Shown: piece by piece, positions 5,698 through 23,038 of the stretch
Layout of the letters: each line of letters opens with the position of its first letter
How positions within the stretch are numbered: position 1 is the first letter of the stretch
DNA from: a virus
Length of the DNA: 23,038 nucleotides
Virus record (IMG/VR): IMGVR_UViG_3300042879_001480
Location: 1-23,038 of that record
Strand: one strand, 5' to 3'
Program-made: the position numbers and the translations under genes
Notes under the pieces: model-generated
Told to the model about the DNA's origin: nothing
Seen by the model: only the letters and a program-made list of their open reading frames with translations
Databases searched by the model: none

Positions 5698-6584
5698 AAG
5701 TTACTAAGCATTCCAAAAACGTCCACGCCATTGAGTGCGGACGTACCCAAGAATTCCTGCTGCTCTCCGACCTGCACTGGGACAACCCTAAGTGCGACAG
5801 GGCCTTGTTAACCAACCACCTCGAAGAAGCCAAGCGCAGGGGTGCGAAAGTCCTCGTAAATGGGGACTTTTTTTGTTTGATGAATGGGCGTGGAGACCCT
5901 CGCAGGAGTAAGGACGACATCCGTCCCGAACACAACAACGGGCGTTACTTGGATTCCATCGTTGACACGGCCGTCGAATGGTTCCGACCCTATGCGGACC
6001 TCCTGCTGGTCCTCGGATACGGGAACCACGAAACCTCCATCATCCAACACCAAGAAACGGACATCCTGCTCCGCTTCGCAACAATCCTCAACCACACCTG
6101 CAAGACCGACATTCAAGTCGGGGGCTATGGCGGGGTCATAGACTTCAAGATGATTTACGACCCGGACCATCGCTGCAACTTCATTATGCACTACTATCAC
6201 GGCTCCGGGGGCGGTGGACCCGTAACCAAGGGAGTCATCCAAGACCAGCGCATCCTTGCAAGCATTGAAGGCTACGACTGCACTTGGCAGGGCCACGTTC
6301 ACGAACTATACTATCACCAAAACATCGTCAACCGATATGTGCGTACGACTCACCAAATTCTTCAAAAGCCCGTGCATCAAGTCCGCACGGCAACGTACAA
6401 AGAAGAATGGGCAGACGGTTATATGGGCTTTCACGTTGAGCGAGGCCGAGGCCCGAAGCCTTTGGGCGGATATTGGATGACCCTCGAAGCAGGACGCTTT
6501 GTAGGCAAGGACCGAAGAGGTCCCGAATTACAGGTCTTTGCTTCCTTCGCCCCCTGCGACCGATTCTACACCGCTGGCAGTTAG
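5694..6584 (+). CDS. Calcineurin-like metallophosphoesterase
   Basis: The 296-aa protein carries the full metal-binding signature of the calcineurin-like superfamily: D26 and H28 in LSDLHWD, D58 in NGDFF, N111-H112-E113 in GYGNHE, H166/H169 in MHYYHG, and H201-V-H203 in WQGHVHE. These residues bind two metal ions and hydrolyse phosphate esters. The substrate is unknown: nucleotide, nucleic acid end or protein phosphate are all possible. The start overlaps the upstream stop (ATGA), so it is co-translated with the lysis genes, although no lysis function is known for the family. Its last 57 bases overlap the 3' end of the amidase gene on the opposite strand. Confidence 0.8.
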   Translation: MKVTKHSKNVHAIECGRTQEFLLLSDLHWDNPKCDRALLTNHLEEAKRRGAKVLVNGDFFCLMNGRGDPRRSKDDIRPEHNNGRYLDSIVDTAVEWFRPYADLLLVLGYGNHETSIIQHQETDILLRFATILNHTCKTDIQVGGYGGVIDFKMIYDPDHRCNFIMHYYHGSGGGGPVTKGVIQDQRILASIEGYDCTWQGHVHELYYHQNIVNRYVRTTHQILQKPVHQVRTATYKEEWADGYMGFHVERGRGPKPLGGYWMTLEAGRFVGKDRRGPELQVFASFAPCDRFYTAGS

Positions 6585-6983
6585 GTACAGGTAGCCGTAC
6601 TCTTTCTCGGCATTAAACTGCGGACAGGCTTTCGTAACGCCCGGAAAGTCCCTGTGTCCGCATATCCTTGCGGTAGGGTACTTCTTGAGCCAATCGAGAA
6701 GCACCACGGCAATCGCTTGACGCTGCCCGATAGTTCGGTCATCTTTGTCCTTGCCTCCAATGTAGGAAACGTGGAGGCTTGTAGCGTTATGCCCCTGCAC
6801 TCCGTTGGTGATGGCACTATCAGGAGCCAAGACCGTTACATTCCCGGTTGCGTCAATTATCCGATGATAGCCAACGGACTTCCATCCAAGGGCTTCCTTC
6901 CAATGCTTGCGGATTGAGGCGATAGTCGTATGCTTGGGCGTTGCCGTGCAATGGACAACGAGGTGGGTGATAGTGCGATTCAT
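6528..6983 (-). CDS. N-acetylmuramoyl-L-alanine amidase (Amidase_2, T7 lysozyme-like endolysin)
   Basis: This 151-aa enzyme would cut the amide bond between muramic acid and the stem peptide of peptidoglycan and act as the endolysin. Zinc ligands are visible: H11 (LVVHCTAT), H110 (CGHRDF) and C120 (KACPQF); Y39 in VGYHRIID and K118 match the catalytic Tyr and Lys of T7 lysozyme. There is no signal peptide, so export needs the holin. A longer frame to 7076 exists, but the ATG at 6983 is chosen because it overlaps the stop of the upstream gene (ATGA) and puts the first strand, THLVVHC, at the usual place. It lies convergent to the phosphoesterase with a 57-base 3' overlap. It is one of only two minus-strand genes here. 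Confidence 0.85.
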   Translation of the reverse strand: MNRTITHLVVHCTATPKHTTIASIRKHWKEALGWKSVGYHRIIDATGNVTVLAPDSAITNGVQGHNATSLHVSYIGGKDKDDRTIGQRQAIAVVLLDWLKKYPTARICGHRDFPGVTKACPQFNAEKEYGYLYLTASGVESVAGGEGSKDL

Positions 6984-9459: not shown

Positions 9460-9699
9460 ATGAGTTACACCCCCCAACCCAACACCTTCACCCTATTCGC
9501 TAACGACAAGGGCGACAACCCTAAGCGTCCAGATTATCGGGGCGACGTGGTCCTCCCTGACGGGACCAAGATGCGCCTATCCGGGTGGGTCAAGGAATCA
9601 GCCAACGGCAAGCGATTCCTATCCGGCAAAATGGAGCCGATGCAGCAGCAGACCAGCGGTGGAAATCTTGCACCCCAAGACGGTGATATGCCGTTTTAG
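9460..9699 (+). CDS. Miniature SSB-like protein with acidic C-terminal tip
   Basis: The 79-aa product reads as a short OB-like beta barrel (TFTLFANDKGDN; YRGDVVLPDGTKMRLSGWVK; GKRFLSGKMEP), followed by a Gln/Gly linker and the C-terminal end DGDMPF. Bacterial SSB proteins end in DDDIPF, the tip that binds partner proteins, so this end is a strong hint of SSB-like function. The body resembles DUF736-type proteins (DYRG...G...RLSGW.K...G..FLSG). The gene lies just ahead of the primase-helicase. It is about half the length of a normal SSB. Cellular role as ssDNA binder is inferred. Confidence 0.5.
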   Translation: MSYTPQPNTFTLFANDKGDNPKRPDYRGDVVLPDGTKMRLSGWVKESANGKRFLSGKMEPMQQQTSGGNLAPQDGDMPF

Positions 9700-9709: not shown

Positions 9710-9792
9710 CAGGCGTACTACATTTACCAATAGACGCATTGCTTGTATAGCAGCCAAGTGATGCTACCGATAAAGGGTCATGCTTGAACCCC

Positions 9793-9828
9793 TACCCCGG
9801 CTGCTGCTATCAGTCGGGGTATTTTTTT
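9793..9828 (+). terminator. Strong intrinsic terminator in the primase leader (possible attenuator)
   Basis: TACCCCGGCTG (9793-9803) pairs with CAGTCGGGGTA (9811-9821) over 11 positions with a single G-U pair and a 7-base loop, followed at once by seven T's (9822-9828). It ends 8 bases before the ATG of the primase-helicase. AGCAGCC at 9749-9755 can pair with GGCTGCT (9799-9805) in the terminator's 5' arm, so an alternative fold could open the hairpin. Confidence 0.75.
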
Positions 9829-9836
9829 CTTATCCT

Positions 9837-12071
9837 ATGGCAGAAATATCAATGTTCAAAGCGTCCACCAATGGCGGTGTGCGAAACAATGTCCCCGAAG
9901 ACCACATGCCGTTTGTGCAGTACATCCAGGACATCAAAGATGGCATCTACTACACGGAGGTCATGGCCTACCGCAAAGCCAAGACCGAAGAAACCAAACG
10001 GAGGCTTTCAGCCGTAACGCCCAGCGGTAAGTTTAAGAAGCAAGGCAAGGAAGGCCTCGAAACGCATTCGGGAATTATCTGCATTGACATCGATGCCAAG
10101 GACAACGAGGGCGTTGACGTGCTTGCAATTCGCCAAGACGAACACCTCTACGCCTTACACCAAAGCACCGGGGGCCAAGGGTATGCAGCCTACTACCGCA
10201 TCGAGCCGGACCGACACCTGGACGCTTTCTATGCTTTGGAGAAACGCCTCGCAGACCGTTACCACATCATTGTTGACCCCGCTTGCAAAGACGTAAGCCG
10301 TTTGCGGTTCGTGAGTTTTGACCCGGACGCATTCATCACCGACAAACCTGTTCCGGTATTTAAGACCTACCTACCCAAGGCCAAGGCTGCACCAGCCCCA
10401 AAGTTCTACCCACACGGTGAACACGATGTCGAACACATTCTCCAGCAAATCGAAGCCAAGCGATTAGACCTGACGGATTCCTATGCCGATTGGGTCAAGA
10501 TTGGCTTTGCCATTGCTGCAAAATACCACGAGCCAGGTGCAGACCTGTTCCACCGGGTTAGTGCTATGTCCCCCAAGTACAACCCGGAAGCCTGCGACCG
10601 CAAGTACAAGCAACTCTGCAACTCAAAGCACAACCAAGTGACCTTTGCTTCGTTCATGTGGCTTGCTAAGAATGCAGGGGTAGAGATTCAAACCAAGACC
10701 ACCAAGCACATCGTGTCCACAACCAAGTCCCACCGCATGCGTGTCGGGACCAATGGCGGTCCCAAGGACATCAACGCAGCAACCGAAGCAGCGGTCCGTG
10801 TACTTCGGGAGATAGACAACATCGACATCGATGGCCTTGAAGAAATCGTTGCCAACACGATGGCACTCGATACCACTGAACTAAAGTCCGCTGATACCGA
10901 GGACACACCAATCAAGCAGATAAAGGCTTTCTTACGTTCATTCGACCTAAAACGCAATGCAGTAACCCGTTGCATTGAATACAAAGGCCAACCCATTACC
11001 GACGTGGACCTGAACAACATTTACGTTGACTGCCTCGAAGCCTTTGGCAAGAAGGAGGTCAACATGCAACTGGTCGGGGCCATAGTGGATTCGGACTTCA
11101 CACCGACCTACAATCCATTCACCCAGTTCTTTGCCCGGCACGGCCATCGCAATCCTACCGGGTGCATCGAGGCCCTGACCAATACCATCCGAACAACCAA
11201 CCAGGATCATACGTTTGTGCAACTCTGCATCACCAAATGGCTCTGCTCGGTCATCGCAAGTATGCACGGGGAATACTCTCTTTCAATACTGGTGCTTTGT
11301 GGCGACCAGGGTATCGGCAAGACCAACTTCTTTCGTAATCTACTGCCCGATGAACTTCGGGCCTATTACGGGGAATCCAAACTGGATGCCGGCAAGGACG
11401 ATGAAATTCTCATGTGCAAGAAGATCATCCTTTGCGATGACGAGTTTGGTGGCAAATCCAAACAGGAAGCCAAGAAACTCAAGGAACTATCCTCCAAGCA
11501 AACCTTTAGCATCCGCAAGCCCTACGGCCGGGTCCATGAGGAACTTAACCGGTATGCGGTCCTTTGCGGTACAAGCAACGACGAGGAAGTCATCAACGAC
11601 CCAACGGGTAACCGTAGGATCCTGCCCATTGTGATCAGCGAGATTGACTGGGATGCCTATGCAGCCATCGACAAAATTGACCTGTTCATTGAAGCCCTCC
11701 ATTCCTTTAAATTGAACGGAGCCGATGCCTGGCAACTATCCAAGGCCGAAATCAAGATGCTGAACAATCACACCATGCACAACGTGCAGCCGGCTATCGA
11801 GAAAGAAATGCTCCTAAACCTGTTTACCATCCCGATGGATTATAGTGACCCCTACGGCAAGTGGATGAGCAATACCGAAATCAAAGACCTCATCGAAACC
11901 TGCACCAAGCAGCACATCAGTTCGCACAAACTCGGAGCGGTCCTAAAGTCCCTTGGCTGTAAGAAAATGACACGACGGGAGCGGAATTTTCTTCCTTGCT
12001 ACTTTTTGGTGAAAAATGCCGATAAAAGTGACTACGCCCAAAAGGTTGATAATAAGCGACATCCGTTTTAG
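9837..12071 (+). CDS. Replicative primase-helicase (BT4734-like primase, PriCT_2, VirE helicase)
   Basis: The 744-aa protein joins primer synthesis and DNA unwinding. Residues ~40-190 resemble the BT4734-type primase domain (GIICIDIDAKDN, STGGQGYAAYYRIEP, CKDVSRLRFVSFDPDAF). Residues ~205-290 resemble PriCT_2 (YADWVKIGFAIAAKY, ASFMWLAKNAG). Residues ~400-690 are a VirE-type superfamily 3-like ATPase: Walker A GDQGIGKT at 489-496, acidic Walker B IILCDDEFGG near 530, and an arginine-finger/sensor segment NDPTGNRRILP near 590. A C-terminal helical part follows. Start at 9837 is preferred over the ATG at 9780, which would put the terminator inside the coding region. The final codons carry one copy of the origin-like repeat. 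It is the main replication protein in view. Confidence 0.85.
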   Translation: MAEISMFKASTNGGVRNNVPEDHMPFVQYIQDIKDGIYYTEVMAYRKAKTEETKRRLSAVTPSGKFKKQGKEGLETHSGIICIDIDAKDNEGVDVLAIRQDEHLYALHQSTGGQGYAAYYRIEPDRHLDAFYALEKRLADRYHIIVDPACKDVSRLRFVSFDPDAFITDKPVPVFKTYLPKAKAAPAPKFYPHGEHDVEHILQQIEAKRLDLTDSYADWVKIGFAIAAKYHEPGADLFHRVSAMSPKYNPEACDRKYKQLCNSKHNQVTFASFMWLAKNAGVEIQTKTTKHIVSTTKSHRMRVGTNGGPKDINAATEAAVRVLREIDNIDIDGLEEIVANTMALDTTELKSADTEDTPIKQIKAFLRSFDLKRNAVTRCIEYKGQPITDVDLNNIYVDCLEAFGKKEVNMQLVGAIVDSDFTPTYNPFTQFFARHGHRNPTGCIEALTNTIRTTNQDHTFVQLCITKWLCSVIASMHGEYSLSILVLCGDQGIGKTNFFRNLLPDELRAYYGESKLDAGKDDEILMCKKIILCDDEFGGKSKQEAKKLKELSSKQTFSIRKPYGRVHEELNRYAVLCGTSNDEEVINDPTGNRRILPIVISEIDWDAYAAIDKIDLFIEALHSFKLNGADAWQLSKAEIKMLNNHTMHNVQPAIEKEMLLNLFTIPMDYSDPYGKWMSNTEIKDLIETCTKQHISSHKLGAVLKSLGCKKMTRRERNFLPCYFLVKNADKSDYAQKVDNKRHPF

Positions 12072-12275
12072 TGTAGTCACTTAGTCACTTAAAATGCGTT
12101 TTTTCTTTAGGGGCTTATATGTGCATGTGTGTGTGTGTGTGTGTGCATATAATATATACTCTAAAGAAAGTAGTAACTAAAGTGACTACACTGACTACAA
12201 CACCCTTCACGCTATCAAAAACGCAGATTTTGGTAGTCACTTCATCCAAACTTAAAGTAACTACAAGTGACCACA
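12025..12275 (+). other. Candidate replication origin: iteron-like repeats around a (TG)10 tract
   Basis: At least eight copies of a motif near AAAGTGACTACA are present: exact or near-exact at 12025-12035 (+), 12072-12082 (-), 12081-12090 (-), 12179-12190 (+), 12192-12199 (+) and 12233-12242 (-); one-mismatch copies at 12170-12179 (-), 12254-12265 (+) and 12265-12275 (+). The inner part is symmetric: pairs of repeats at 12072-12090 and 12179-12199, and the inverted arms TTTCTTTAG (12102-12110) and CTAAAGAAA (12161-12169), all centre on about 12135.5, the middle of the (TG)10 tract. An AT-rich stretch (12146-12158) follows. It lies between primase-helicase and helicase genes. The origin role is inferred; an operator array is the alternative. 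Confidence 0.6.
12126..12145 (+). repeat. (TG)10 dinucleotide tract
   Basis: Ten TG units form the exact centre of the symmetric region. Alternating purine-pyrimidine tracts can adopt Z-DNA and ease strand opening. Such a long pure dinucleotide tract is rare in compact phage genomes. Confidence 0.95.
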
Positions 12276-13700
12276 CTTAGACCCTACCAACAAACCGCTA
12301 TTGACCAAATGCGGACAAGCATTGCCGAGGGCAAAAGACGCTTGATACTATGCTCCCCAACAGGGAGCGGTAAGACGGTCATGTTCACCTACATGGTGGC
12401 ACGGGCCTTAGAGAAAGGCAAGCAGGCCATCATCTTCACGGACCGGGTTGAACTGCTCCGGCAATCCAACGGAGCCTTGGACCAGTTCGGAATCAAGCCG
12501 ACGCTGATTGAGGCCAACCGAACCCGGCTCGATGTTTCCGGCAACTGTTTCATTGCCATGGCCCAAACATTCAGCCGAAGGAAGGACTCTGCCCAATACA
12601 CGGACCTCTTGGCCCGTATGGACCTGGTGATCATTGACGAAGCCCACAAGCAGACATTCAACCCCCTGCTGCCATACATAAACCCCAAGGCCGTGGTCAT
12701 CGGTGCGACCGCAACGCCATTCCGGAGGGGAAAGCAGGAATGCCTCTCCAAGTTCTACAAAGCACTCCATGCACCGGTTCAGGTGCAGGAACTAATCAGC
12801 CAAGGTTACCTGGCCGAACCAACGACCTACGGGATGACGCAGGACCTTTCCGGAATCCGAATGAAGGGCGATGATTACGACACCGAGCAGATGGCACAAC
12901 GATTCAGCGAGCGGAAGGTCTTTGCCGGAGTGGTGCAGAACTACGCCAAGGTCTGCCCAGGCAAGAAGGCGATCGTATTTGCGAGCAACATCGCATCAAG
13001 CAAGGAGGTTTGCGAGGCTTTGCAGGGTGCAGGGTTCAACGCCCGGCACGTTGACGGAGAGATGCCAAAGTCCTTACGAGCCGAAACCCTTGCGTGGTTT
13101 AAGCATTCCACCAATGGGATCCTTTGCAACTGCGACCTGATGACCACGGGCTTTGATGAACCAAGCATCGAGGTGGTCATCCTTTACCGGGCGACTGCGA
13201 GCCTACCCCTGTTCATGCAGATGGTTGGCCGAGGCTCCAGGGTAACGCCTACCAAGACACGGTTCACGGTGCTGGATTTCGGGAACAACGTGCAGACCCA
13301 TGGCTTTTGGGAAACGAACCGGGAATGGTCGTTGAAGAAGAAACGCAAACGGGAATCCGCTGGCGTTGGTGGGGTGAAGAACTGCAAGAAGTGCGAGGCC
13401 ATTATCCCGGTGGCTGCCATGGAGTGCAAGAATTGCGGGTTTGAATACGAGCGAAAGCCAAAGCCTCCAGGTGAAGTCGTAAGTTTGCAGATGCTGACCA
13501 AGGCCCAAGGCATGGAAATGGCAAAGCAAAGCACGATGTACCAAAAGGCTCAACTGGCAAAGGCCAAGGTCATCAGCCCGTTTTGGGTGCTTCACAACTG
13601 CAAGACCAGGGCAGAGGCCGAAGAGTTTGTCAGTTACATGGGATGGCGGAGGGGTTGGCTTTACCACAACGCAAAACGATTCAAAGTCTTTCAATCATGA
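12267..13700 (+). CDS. SF2 DEAD/DEAH-box helicase with C-terminal zinc ribbon
   Basis: The 477-aa protein has all main SF2 motifs: Q-like LRPYQ at residues 4-8, Walker A SPTGSGKT (30-37), DEAH (124-127), GATATPFRR (146-154), and motif VI QMVGRGSR near 320. After the helicase core a zinc ribbon is visible with Cys pairs C373/C376 and C387/C390. The end (residues ~440-477, EEFVSYMGWRRGWLYHNAKRF) is a small extra domain. The start is GTG at 12267; an in-frame stop lies 9 bases upstream, and starting later would lose the LRPYQ motif. The start region overlaps a repeat of the candidate origin. The protein likely unwinds or remodels replication forks or branched DNA, together with the nuclease that overlaps its stop by ATGA. 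Confidence 0.85.
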   Translation: MTTLRPYQQTAIDQMRTSIAEGKRRLILCSPTGSGKTVMFTYMVARALEKGKQAIIFTDRVELLRQSNGALDQFGIKPTLIEANRTRLDVSGNCFIAMAQTFSRRKDSAQYTDLLARMDLVIIDEAHKQTFNPLLPYINPKAVVIGATATPFRRGKQECLSKFYKALHAPVQVQELISQGYLAEPTTYGMTQDLSGIRMKGDDYDTEQMAQRFSERKVFAGVVQNYAKVCPGKKAIVFASNIASSKEVCEALQGAGFNARHVDGEMPKSLRAETLAWFKHSTNGILCNCDLMTTGFDEPSIEVVILYRATASLPLFMQMVGRGSRVTPTKTRFTVLDFGNNVQTHGFWETNREWSLKKKRKRESAGVGGVKNCKKCEAIIPVAAMECKNCGFEYERKPKPPGEVVSLQMLTKAQGMEMAKQSTMYQKAQLAKAKVISPFWVLHNCKTRAEAEEFVSYMGWRRGWLYHNAKRFKVFQS

Positions 13701-14967: not shown

Positions 14968-15267
14968 ATGGACCTAATCTCACGAACCATCCTTGGCTAC
15001 ACGGCAGAGGTTGTCGGAGTCAGCCCCGATGACATCTTGAGCGAAGTCAAGACCCGTGAACTGGTCCTTGCTCGGTCCATCTTCGCAGACATCGCCTACT
15101 CGGAATACCTCTACACCTACTGCCAAATCGGGCGTATCATCAAGAGGAACCACGCAACGGTCATGCACAACCTTGAAATCCTTGCGATAAACATGAGAGC
15201 AAGACCCGACATTAAATTCCTTCGTACACAAGTTTTAAACAGGACGAGAGATTTTTTGCAACATTAG
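14968..15267 (+). CDS. DnaA domain IV-like DNA-binding protein
   Basis: The 99-aa product resembles only the C-terminal DNA-binding domain of the bacterial initiator DnaA: TAEVVGVSPDDILSE, then TRELVLARSIFADIAY and the signature IGRIIKRNHATVMHN (residues 54-68), where HATV and the second His contact DnaA boxes in true DnaA. There is no AAA+ ATPase part. It may bind the phage origin or host DnaA boxes, either helping phage initiation or blocking host initiation. Bacteroidetes phages often carry such stand-alone domains; the function is not settled. Confidence 0.65.
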   Translation: MDLISRTILGYTAEVVGVSPDDILSEVKTRELVLARSIFADIAYSEYLYTYCQIGRIIKRNHATVMHNLEILAINMRARPDIKFLRTQVLNRTRDFLQH

Positions 15268-16795: not shown

Positions 16796-16936
16796 ATGGA
16801 CTCGTTGATGATGGTGATCACGACCCTCTGCGACTGCATCGGAGCGGTGGACGATTCCAATGCCCCGAACCAGTACGAAGTGAAAATGAAAATCGTAAAC
16901 AAGATAAGCGACCTAATAGACAAAATCGAATACTAA
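16796..16936 (+). CDS. Small hypothetical protein upstream of terS
   Basis: A 46-aa helical product (MDSLMMVITTLCDCIGAV, then KMKIVNKISDLIDKIEY) whose stop shares a base with the terS start (TAATG). The frame stays open upstream, so a GTG at 16784 (50 aa) or an earlier start is possible; the ATG at 16796 is the conservative choice. Its position and TAATG coupling suggest that it is translated with terS. No known motif. Confidence 0.45.
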   Translation: MDSLMMVITTLCDCIGAVDDSNAPNQYEVKMKIVNKISDLIDKIEY

Positions 16937-17352
16937 TGGGAACCAGCAGAGGACACGGCAAATACATTGAAACTCCCGAAAAGATGTGGGAGTACTTTGA
17001 GGCATACCGGGCAGGGGTCAAGGCAAACCCTCGGACCAAGACGGTGTTCCCCGGCAAGGATGCTATCCCCCAGCATGAGCCTTTGGAGCGACCCTTGACC
17101 TTGGAAGGCTTTGAGAACTGGTGTGCAGATGCAGGTATCATTGATGGCCTTGAACACTACTTTGCCAACACGAAGGGCAACTACTCCGACTATTTAAGTA
17201 TCTGTTCACGCATAAAGCGAGTCATCCGCCAAGACCAAATCGAAGGGGGTATGGTCGGTCAGTACAACGCAAGCATCACCCAACGGCTGAACTCTTTGGT
17301 AGATAAGCAGGAGAATCAGGTCTTTATTGAACAATGGACCGAAGATGATTGA
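16936..17352 (+). CDS. terS: Terminase small subunit
   Basis: The 138-aa product matches small terminase subunits (DNA-packaging proteins) of Bacteroidetes phages: KYIETPEKMWEYFEAYRAGV at the N-terminus, then PLTLEGFENWCADAGII, a region with HYFANTKGNYSDYLSICSRI, and QDQIEGGMVGQYNASITQRL before the acidic tail. These form a helix-turn-helix and an oligomerisation core that recognises phage DNA for packaging. The stop and the terL start overlap (TGATG). Confidence 0.75.
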   Translation: MGTSRGHGKYIETPEKMWEYFEAYRAGVKANPRTKTVFPGKDAIPQHEPLERPLTLEGFENWCADAGIIDGLEHYFANTKGNYSDYLSICSRIKRVIRQDQIEGGMVGQYNASITQRLNSLVDKQENQVFIEQWTEDD

Positions 17353-18527
17353 TGAAGGTCATAAACACCACCGCCAAGCGGAAGATTGAATCGCTGACCC
17401 ATCGTAAACGGGTCATCCAAGGAGGGACCTCGGCCTCCAAGACCTTCAGCATTCTTTGCGTCCTCATCAAGCAAGCCTGCACGAAGAAGACCGAAATCAG
17501 CATTGTTGGGGAAACCGTGCCTCACCTTCGGAGGGGTGCGATTCGGGACTTCATCAAGATAATGATTGCCAAGGGCATCTTCGTTCCGGCAAGGTGGAAC
17601 AAGACCTTGCTGACCTACCAGTTCGCTAACCGTAGCACTATTGAGTTTTTCTCGGCTGACCAAGAGGCAAGGCTCCGGGGTGCAAGGAGGCAGGTGCTAT
17701 TCATCAACGAGGCGAACAACATCGACTTTGAATCTTACTATCAACTCGCCATCCGTACAAGCGAGGCCATCTACATCGACTTCAACCCAACTCACGAATT
17801 TTGGGCGCATACCGAGGTCTTGCGTGAGGACGATTCCGAACTGCTCATCCTAACCTACAACGACAACGAGGCTCTGCCTGATACCATCAAGAGGGACATT
17901 GAACTGAACCGCACCAAAGCCGAAACATCTGCCTATTGGGCGAACTGGTGGAAGGTGTACGGCCTTGGTCAGGTCGGGACGCTTCAGGGAGCCATCTACG
18001 AGGACTTCGAGGTGGTGGAGGGTATCGATGTCAGCCGTGCGAAATTCGTCGCCCTTGGGCTTGACTGGGGCTTTAGCAACGACCCAACCGCACTCGTAGC
18101 AATATATCGCCAAGGGGACTGCCTGCTCATCCAAGAACTACTGTACTCCACGGGCCTTACCAACCAAGACATCGCAGACAAGTTGCGGACGCTGGGCATC
18201 ACCCGGGCTTGGGAGATAGTGGCCGATTCAGCCGAACCCAAGTCCATCGAGGAAATCTACCGATTGGGGTTCAACATCAAGCCAGCGGAGAAAGGCCCCG
18301 ACTCGGTTCGGAACGGGATAGACATCCTGAAACGCTTTAAATTGCAGGTGACCAAGGACTCCACCAACCTTATCAAGGAACTACGCTCCTACACTTGGGC
18401 GACCGACAAGGAGGGCAAGAACACAGGGGTTCCGATTGACTCGTTCAACCACGCCTGCGATGCGATGCGGTATGTGGCACTCAACAAGTTAAGGGTCAGT
18501 AATTCAGGAAAGTATGTTGTTGTGTAA
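17352..18527 (+). CDS. terL: Terminase large subunit (packaging ATPase/nuclease)
   Basis: The 391-aa motor protein has an N-terminal ATPase with Walker A QGGTSASKT (residues 23-31) and Walker B VLFINEANN (E120), and a C-terminal RNase H-like nuclease with D238 (LGLDWGFSND), D292 (VADSAEP) and D370 (HACDAMRY). It translocates DNA into the procapsid and cuts it. The start ATG at 17352 overlaps the terS stop; a TTG three bases upstream is in frame but unnecessary. At 391 aa it is short but complete for this PBSX-like group. Its stop lies inside a TAACTTTG box just before a small membrane gene. Confidence 0.9.
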   Translation: MKVINTTAKRKIESLTHRKRVIQGGTSASKTFSILCVLIKQACTKKTEISIVGETVPHLRRGAIRDFIKIMIAKGIFVPARWNKTLLTYQFANRSTIEFFSADQEARLRGARRQVLFINEANNIDFESYYQLAIRTSEAIYIDFNPTHEFWAHTEVLREDDSELLILTYNDNEALPDTIKRDIELNRTKAETSAYWANWWKVYGLGQVGTLQGAIYEDFEVVEGIDVSRAKFVALGLDWGFSNDPTALVAIYRQGDCLLIQELLYSTGLTNQDIADKLRTLGITRAWEIVADSAEPKSIEEIYRLGFNIKPAEKGPDSVRNGIDILKRFKLQVTKDSTNLIKELRSYTWATDKEGKNTGVPIDSFNHACDAMRYVALNKLRVSNSGKYVVV

Positions 18528-22647: not shown

Positions 22648-23038
22648 ATGGCAACAACCGTCCTTTCCGGGTCGCCCCAAGTGGCTACACCCGTTTACAA
22701 CAAGATGCTCTTCAAGGTCAGCGGTTCGCTGATTGCTCAACCCAATTACAGGTACGTCTGCGATGTCAAGAACCCAGCAGGGACCACCCTTGCCCGGCTC
22801 AAGTGCGACAAACTTCCAACCACCAACTTCGGATTCTTTGACGTTGCCAAGGTTGTGGAAACGCTGATCGCACCGACTAAGCCATCGCTGACCCAAACGG
22901 GATTCGTGGATCATGCCGGGTATTATTCGGGGTATCGCCTTGACTTCATGGAGGAATACGGAAACACCCCAGTCGTGCAGACAGGAACCGTTACCACCGT
23001 GTCGGGCCGTGTTGCCTTTGCAGGAAACTTGGAGCAGT
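22648..23038 (+). CDS. Tail/baseplate structural protein, 3' end outside window
   Basis: The frame starts at the ATG at 22648 (one base after the previous stop) and remains open to the window end, giving 130 residues. The visible part is beta-rich: MATTVLSGSPQVATPVYNKM, LFKVSGSLIAQPNYRYVCDV, GTTLARLKCDK, then FGFFDVAKVVETLI and a VVQTGTVTTVSGRVAF strand pair. An opening SPQ...TPVYN...F followed by YRYVCDV and a FDV...V helix occurs in Bacteroidetes phage tail proteins near the tape measure gene. Exact role unknown. Confidence 0.6.
   Translation, partial: MATTVLSGSPQVATPVYNKMLFKVSGSLIAQPNYRYVCDVKNPAGTTLARLKCDKLPTTNFGFFDVAKVVETLIAPTKPSLTQTGFVDHAGYYSGYRLDFMEEYGNTPVVQTGTVTTVSGRVAFAGNLEQ

Follow-up and report, generated by a model that had tools for sequence, protein, structure and literature searches.

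The gene for a VapE-type primase-helicase in this virus record is followed by a cluster of short repeats on both strands. The locus raises the question of whether these repeats (iterons) form a replication origin, and which protein reads them. We analysed the whole stretch of 23,038 nucleotides (the window), a linear virus record with portal, tail, and small and large terminase genes, which stems from a full-sized tailed phage, probably of a Bacteroidota host. In our assessment, positions 12025–12275 are very probably a phage replication origin with the VapE C-terminal domain (CTD) as the iteron reader. The region is read in this way because, in dozens of relatives, the iterons covary with the C-terminal end of the primase-helicase encoded next to them.

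The array and its gene neighbourhood

VapE consists of a BT4734-like N-terminal part, PriCT-2, the VapE AAA+ domain, and a putative C-terminal winged helix. PF05272 scored 103 bits, beside PF08707 and PF08800. Among solved structures, PriRep1 (PDB 7pds, 'Similar to D. nodosus vapE') comes nearest by both sequence (E = 3.9e-11) and fold (Foldseek E = 1.6e-12); it was solved with dsDNA. The sequence match is confined to the AAA+ part (profile positions 400–653), with none over the CTD. The VapE stop codon occupies 12069–12071, the SF2 helicase gene downstream starts with a GTG at 12267, and the gene at 9460 encodes a small ssDNA-binding protein.

Between and across these two gene borders, eight or nine iterons with the core GTGACTAC surround a (TG)10 tract. 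Eight copies match AAAGTGACTACA with at most three mismatches (Table 1). The unbiased 9-mer cluster search ranked the array first in the window and returned nine copies, including a weaker one at 12170. At one mismatch or fewer, GTGACTAC has nine matches inside 255 bp, and 100 dinucleotide shuffles of the window reached three at most; the clustering is far beyond chance. The array extends into both neighbouring genes, with the first iteron in the end of the VapE reading frame and the last over the helicase GTG. The first-pass annotation had described at least eight copies on both strands within about 250 bases and a dyad about 12135.5, and its count and coordinates were reproduced. The (TG)10 tract, the arms TTTCTTTAG and CTAAAGAAA, and the outer iteron pair are all centred at 12135.5, and the inner pair at 12135.

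An Rfam scan of the window gave no RNA family, and a search for the Bacteroidota-type promoter (TTTG-N18-22-TANNTTTG) gave none of note. Comparing the origin by nucleotide search with phages yielded chance-level matches only, and with plasmids no match. A lone iteron-like CAAGTGGCTACA at 22678–22689, near the start of the last open reading frame (22648), is probably due to chance.

Table 1. Features of the candidate origin and the adjoining genes (window coordinates)
Feature	Position	Strand	Basis
VapE-type primase-helicase, proposed initiator	9780..12071	+	Pfam PF08800, PF08707, PF05272; PDB 7pds match; AlphaFold model
VapE CTD, residues ~660–763, proposed iteron reader	11757..12068	+	Winged-helix order in models; covaries with iterons
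Codons of residues 713–716 (ISSH), start of putative recognition helix, varies with iteron type	11916..11927	+	
Codons of residues 728–737 (KKMTRRERNF), putative wing, varies with iteron type	11961..11990	+	
Iteron 1, within the 3' end of the VapE coding sequence	12025..12036	+	AAAGTGACTACA match
Iteron 2, left outer copy	12072..12083	-	AAAGTGACTACA match
Iteron 3, left inner copy	12080..12091	-	AAAGTGACTACA match
Inverted arm TTTCTTTAG, weakly conserved	12102..12110	+	Sequence
Alternating pyrimidine-purine tract, 36 nt, candidate unwinding element; contains (TG)10 at 12126–12145	12116..12151	.	Sequence
AT-rich box ATATAATATATACTCT, still identifiable in distant relatives	12147..12162	+	Sequence, relatives
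Inverted arm CTAAAGAAA	12161..12169	+	Sequence
Weak ninth iteron copy (GTTACTAC core)	12170..12178	-	Cluster search
Iteron, right inner copy	12179..12190	+	AAAGTGACTACA match
Iteron, right outer copy	12188..12199	+	AAAGTGACTACA match
Iteron	12232..12243	-	AAAGTGACTACA match
Iteron	12254..12265	+	AAAGTGACTACA match
Iteron over the SF2 helicase start codon	12264..12275	+	AAAGTGACTACA match
SF2 (ResIII/Helicase_C) helicase gene, downstream of the origin	12267..13700	+	Pfam
DnaA domain IV-like protein, stand-alone	14968-15267		PF08299 Bac_DnaA_C, 43.7 bits

Conservation of the array among relatives

The VapE query retrieved 79 loci and later scans added more, leaving 83 once identical regions were removed. 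Nearly all of them carry the array between VapE and the helicase, with the copies oriented alike: the first lies in the VapE end, the next two face left, two more face right, another faces left, and the last two, at the helicase start, face right. The left copy next to the stop codon lies 107–113 bp from the right copy. Place, orientation, and spacing are kept down to about 50% VapE identity. The first-pass annotation had proposed a comparison of related phages for co-conservation of motif and symmetry. The array proved to be co-conserved in about 80 distinct loci; of the symmetry, the iterons, their orientation, and the spacing of about 110 bp were retained, and neither the 9-nt arms nor an uninterrupted (TG)n tract was general.

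The sequence of the iterons changes between lineages, and all copies in an array switch together (GTGACTAC, GTGACTAT, GTAACCAC, GTTACCAC). GTGACTAC is the iteron of two clades, those of the window and of L037/L052, and GTGACTAT/GTAACTAT iterons occur in L020–L036 and L059. L062 and L075 have GTAACCAC, L070 has CTAACCAT, L078 has TTACTAC, and L239/L270 have TTACCAC. Even the iteron inside the VapE coding sequence changes with the lineage, reading AGTGACTAC, AGTAACTAT or AGTGACTAT, or AGTAACCAC. In L090 and L091, a second repeat type, GTGAATAC, replaces the ordinary iterons in the right half of the array.

Several related contigs map as circles of about 32–39 kb because their ends overlap. In one of these circular-mapping relatives, the detrended GC-skew minimum was found 0.9 kb from the array and the maximum nearly opposite; in three others, the minimum was 4–8 kb off the array. 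The skew, a check suggested by the first-pass annotation, is thus mixed; the lack of a consistent switch at the array weighs against the origin reading. The contig IMGVR_UViG_2222084011_000057 (L065/L072, 40220 b) was omitted from this comparison because it carries two different VapE-origin modules, one with GTGACTAC iterons at about 5.1 kb and one with GTGACTAT iterons and a broken VapE reading frame at about 38.3 kb. This contig is probably a chimera or a joined assembly; alternatively, it may be a two-replicon phage.

The VapE C-terminal domain as the putative iteron reader

Iteron distance followed CTD distance with a Mantel r of 0.889, and with a partial r of 0.82 given the VapE core (p = 0.001; 45 loci, phylogeny being ignored by the permutation). 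The partial correlation of the iterons with the VapE core given the CTD was -0.10 for the same 45 loci, again ignoring phylogeny. Locus pairs with a near-identical VapE core had an iteron distance of 0.012 if their CTDs matched and 0.168 if they differed.

Two contrasts are cleaner than these correlations. The VapE proteins of L020–L024 share 77–100% identity (mostly above 85%) with the window protein up to residue 660, then 52% and 44%. Beyond this residue, they are 81–87% and 63–65% identical to the other iteron class. At the DNA level, L022 and the window mostly share 88–96% identity ahead of the CTD, except for two lower 120-bp segments. Identity falls to 59–74% between about -380 and +200 relative to the VapE stop, where L022 is nearer to the other iteron class, and returns to 93–96% over about 360 bp at the helicase 5' end. 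The block would correspond to a natural exchange, or a joint divergence, of exactly the CTD and the origin. The second contrast is the L062/L063 pair, in which the VapE proteins are 96–100% identical until the last 43 residues, where identity is 77%. Their wings read KKHNRREKGF (L062) and KKVARREKNF (L063), and their iterons are mainly GTAACCAC and GTGACTAC, respectively.

Comparison of the relatives thus shows the iterons as one coevolving set directly 3' of VapE, with a sequence that follows its CTD. The result supports the iteron-origin reading of the first-pass annotation. What such covariation can demonstrate is an iteron reader and not initiation itself.

In the AlphaFold models, the helices and strands of the CTD come in winged-helix order. 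VIA-align superposed the CTD on winged helices with Z values of 6–8.6, near the level of common arrangements, which supports the modelled fold and does not prove it. Foldseek with the CTD alone returned no significant match.

We tentatively suggest, as a possibility we would not call probable, that the VapE CTD and the iteron array form a swappable specificity cassette, recombined as a unit between phages and giving rise to replicon-compatibility types. Such a cassette would possibly let phages evade satellites or plasmids that make use of their origin. It would also imply a protein-to-DNA code, in which a recognition-helix H or F would go with GTGACTAC, N with GTGACTAT, Y with CCAC or CCAT, and the wing KKHNRxxxG with GTAACCA.

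The centre of the array

In the arrays of many relatives, pyrimidines and purines alternate over 20–46 nt at the centre, in TG, CG, and TA steps. The alternating run measures 8–18 nt in the L061, L078, L090, L168, and L239 classes, and we rejected (TG)n as a generally defining element. The first-pass annotation had given the tract the central place in the design; it is short or absent in relatives with an identical iteron layout, and the comparison indicates that the (TG)n centre is lineage-specific. The AT-rich box on the right side of the centre (ATAAT..TACTC) is more general among the relatives. We conjecture that the alternating tract may ease melting or adopt Z-DNA. Transitions were mildly enriched in it (44:32 vs 88:120, p = 0.02, with an uncertain alignment), and because of this mildness and uncertainty we do not claim selection on the alternation. 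The 9-nt arms are poorly kept in other classes and were rejected as a conserved cruciform.

Proposed mechanism and alternative functions

According to the proposed mechanism, VapE would assemble on the inverted iteron pairs through its CTD. The AT-rich or alternating pyrimidine-purine centre between the pairs would then melt, and VapE itself would unwind and prime from there. The flanking SF2 helicase and the small ssDNA-binding protein are likely helpers. Functionally, the origin would resemble the rep-ori replicon of SaPIs and PICIs as well as the origin of SCCmec Cch2.

The same iterons, bound by VapE, might instead serve mainly as an operator for the downstream helicase gene, with replication starting elsewhere. 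Three of the copies (12232–12275) adjoin or overlap the helicase start, and in the phage mumin one copy also directly precedes the next ATG. However, an operator would not explain two inverted sets about 110 bp apart around an AT-rich core, nor the copy inside the upstream gene. Moreover, lotta8-1, mumin, and phi17:1 keep the layout ahead of genes other than the SF2 helicase, and the putative reader is a domain of a helicase-primase. We regard the operator function as improbable; autoregulation by VapE could be compatible with origin function.

The first-pass annotation had named two possible binders, the primase-helicase and the DnaA domain IV-like protein. The former is supported by the covariation of the iterons with its CTD. 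The latter would bind the iterons and recruit host or phage machinery, as its Bac_DnaA_C match and the conservation of its gene nearby in many relatives might suggest. However, different iteron types stand beside near-identical copies of this protein: window-type proteins (196–206 bits) accompany both GTGACTAC (L006) and GTGACTAT (L021–L024) arrays. Its Mantel r with the iteron distance was 0.25 and turned negative once the CTD was controlled for, and a search within 5 kb of the L062, L063, L070, and L075 arrays yielded no homologue. The window also has no excess of DnaA boxes, with 11 one-mismatch matches to TTATNCACA against 15 expected, none exact, and no cluster of the kind that marks an oriC-like origin. 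Being decoupled from the iteron type across relatives, the DnaA-like protein was rejected as the reader; this role is very unlikely.

The least credible reading, and one hardly to be expected, is a site of the kind used by host RecA, integrases, or packaging (att, cos, pac), or another structural repeat without origin function. Inverted arms and clustered repeats occur at such sites too, but the array lies between replication genes, away from the terminase genes (16936–18527), and its sequence follows the VapE CTD.

Other VapE phages and satellites

The unbiased cluster search was also run on other VapE loci. Directly 3' of VapE, we found nine copies of TTGGAACA in Flavobacterium phage lotta8-1, eight of TGTCGCACTT in a Saprospiraceae contig (L329), and a TCCTACCA cluster in Streptococcus satellite phage Javan376. 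Flavobacterium phage mumin carries a GGTAACC cluster past a nuclease gene, with inverted pairs about 114 bp apart and an AT-rich core. Several GTGACCA copies 3' of VapE in Cellulophaga phi17:1 were found by eye, and a weaker GTTACATT cluster 3' of VapE in phage P12024L was missed by the unbiased search. There was no iteron cluster 3' of VapE in phi46:1, Bacteroidia contig L330, phi38:2, Leuconostoc 1-A4, or Xanthomonas FoX5; these counter-examples weigh against the origin reading. A search of bacterial genomes gave two distant relatives only.

Three further loci are worth describing. In Flavobacterium phage mumin6-4 (L087), a PF10544-annotated nuclease gene (6184–6747) separates VapE from the array; iteron pairs border it on both sides, which gives the impression of an insertion into the origin region. 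In Cellulophaga phage phi38:2 (L331, 5459–5727), AGTAGCTAA recurs about 17 times within a 300-bp stretch, roughly 1.4 kb downstream of VirE; the copies overlap an annotated hypothetical gene and may be an origin, a coding repeat, or something else. In Cellulophaga phage phi46:1, which has VapE and a DnaA-like gene, a helix-turn-helix gene is accompanied by six TTAACGTTT-like repeats (L086, 178–323), which are likely operator sites.

Comparison with known replicons

The literature searched, which left out most subscription journals, contains no description of such an origin for Bacteroidota phages. The concerted iteron change, the swap of CTD plus origin, and the near-identical pair with different wings provide a data set on origin choice by self-loading helicases.

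The alpha protein of satellite phage P4 unites primase, helicase, and origin binding in one protein, and reads repeats through its C-terminal part. P4 differs from the window in being a satellite with two separate sites (ori and crr). A comparison with P4 is also made in PMC6092414.

The SCCmec Cch2 protein is likewise a primase-helicase operon protein with iterons directly downstream of its gene, and its isolated CTD binds these iterons, with the published core AAGTG (PMC7581432). The window iterons begin with AAGTG too, which may be chance. Unlike the window, the Cch2 origin has only three iterons and lies in a chromosomal cassette.

In SaPIs, the Rep CTD recognises iterons directly downstream of the rep gene (PMC7581432). 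The origins of PICIs, the phage-inducible chromosomal islands of Gram-positive and Gram-negative bacteria, invariably place an AT-rich region between two sets of iterons 3' of rep, a layout which the authors stated in 2018 to be shared by no other known bacterial replicon (PMC6092414). The window VapE is such an initiator, a primase-helicase with a D5/VapE-type AAA+ domain. The array directly follows and spans the stop codon of its gene, as in the relatives, and its left (12072–12091) and right (12179–12275) sets flank the AT box. The CTD is the published reader in Rep and the presumed one in VapE. Unlike SaPI/PICI, many relatives of the window have a long alternating TG/CG/TA centre, and the window type has paired inverted iterons, a near-fixed spacing of about 110 bp, and iterons running into both neighbouring genes. 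SaPIs and PICIs are satellites, whereas a PICI's lack of a full set of virion and packaging genes does not apply here: the window type belongs to full-sized phages with their own portal and large terminase genes. For this reason the window element is not a PICI, though its replicon is of the PICI kind. A replicon layout that had been reported chiefly for parasitic satellites thus occurs in full-sized phages, including the cultured Flavobacterium phages lotta8-1 and mumin and Cellulophaga phi17:1. Because the PICI-type layout is found in such phages, the satellite and the phage replicon may share ancestry.
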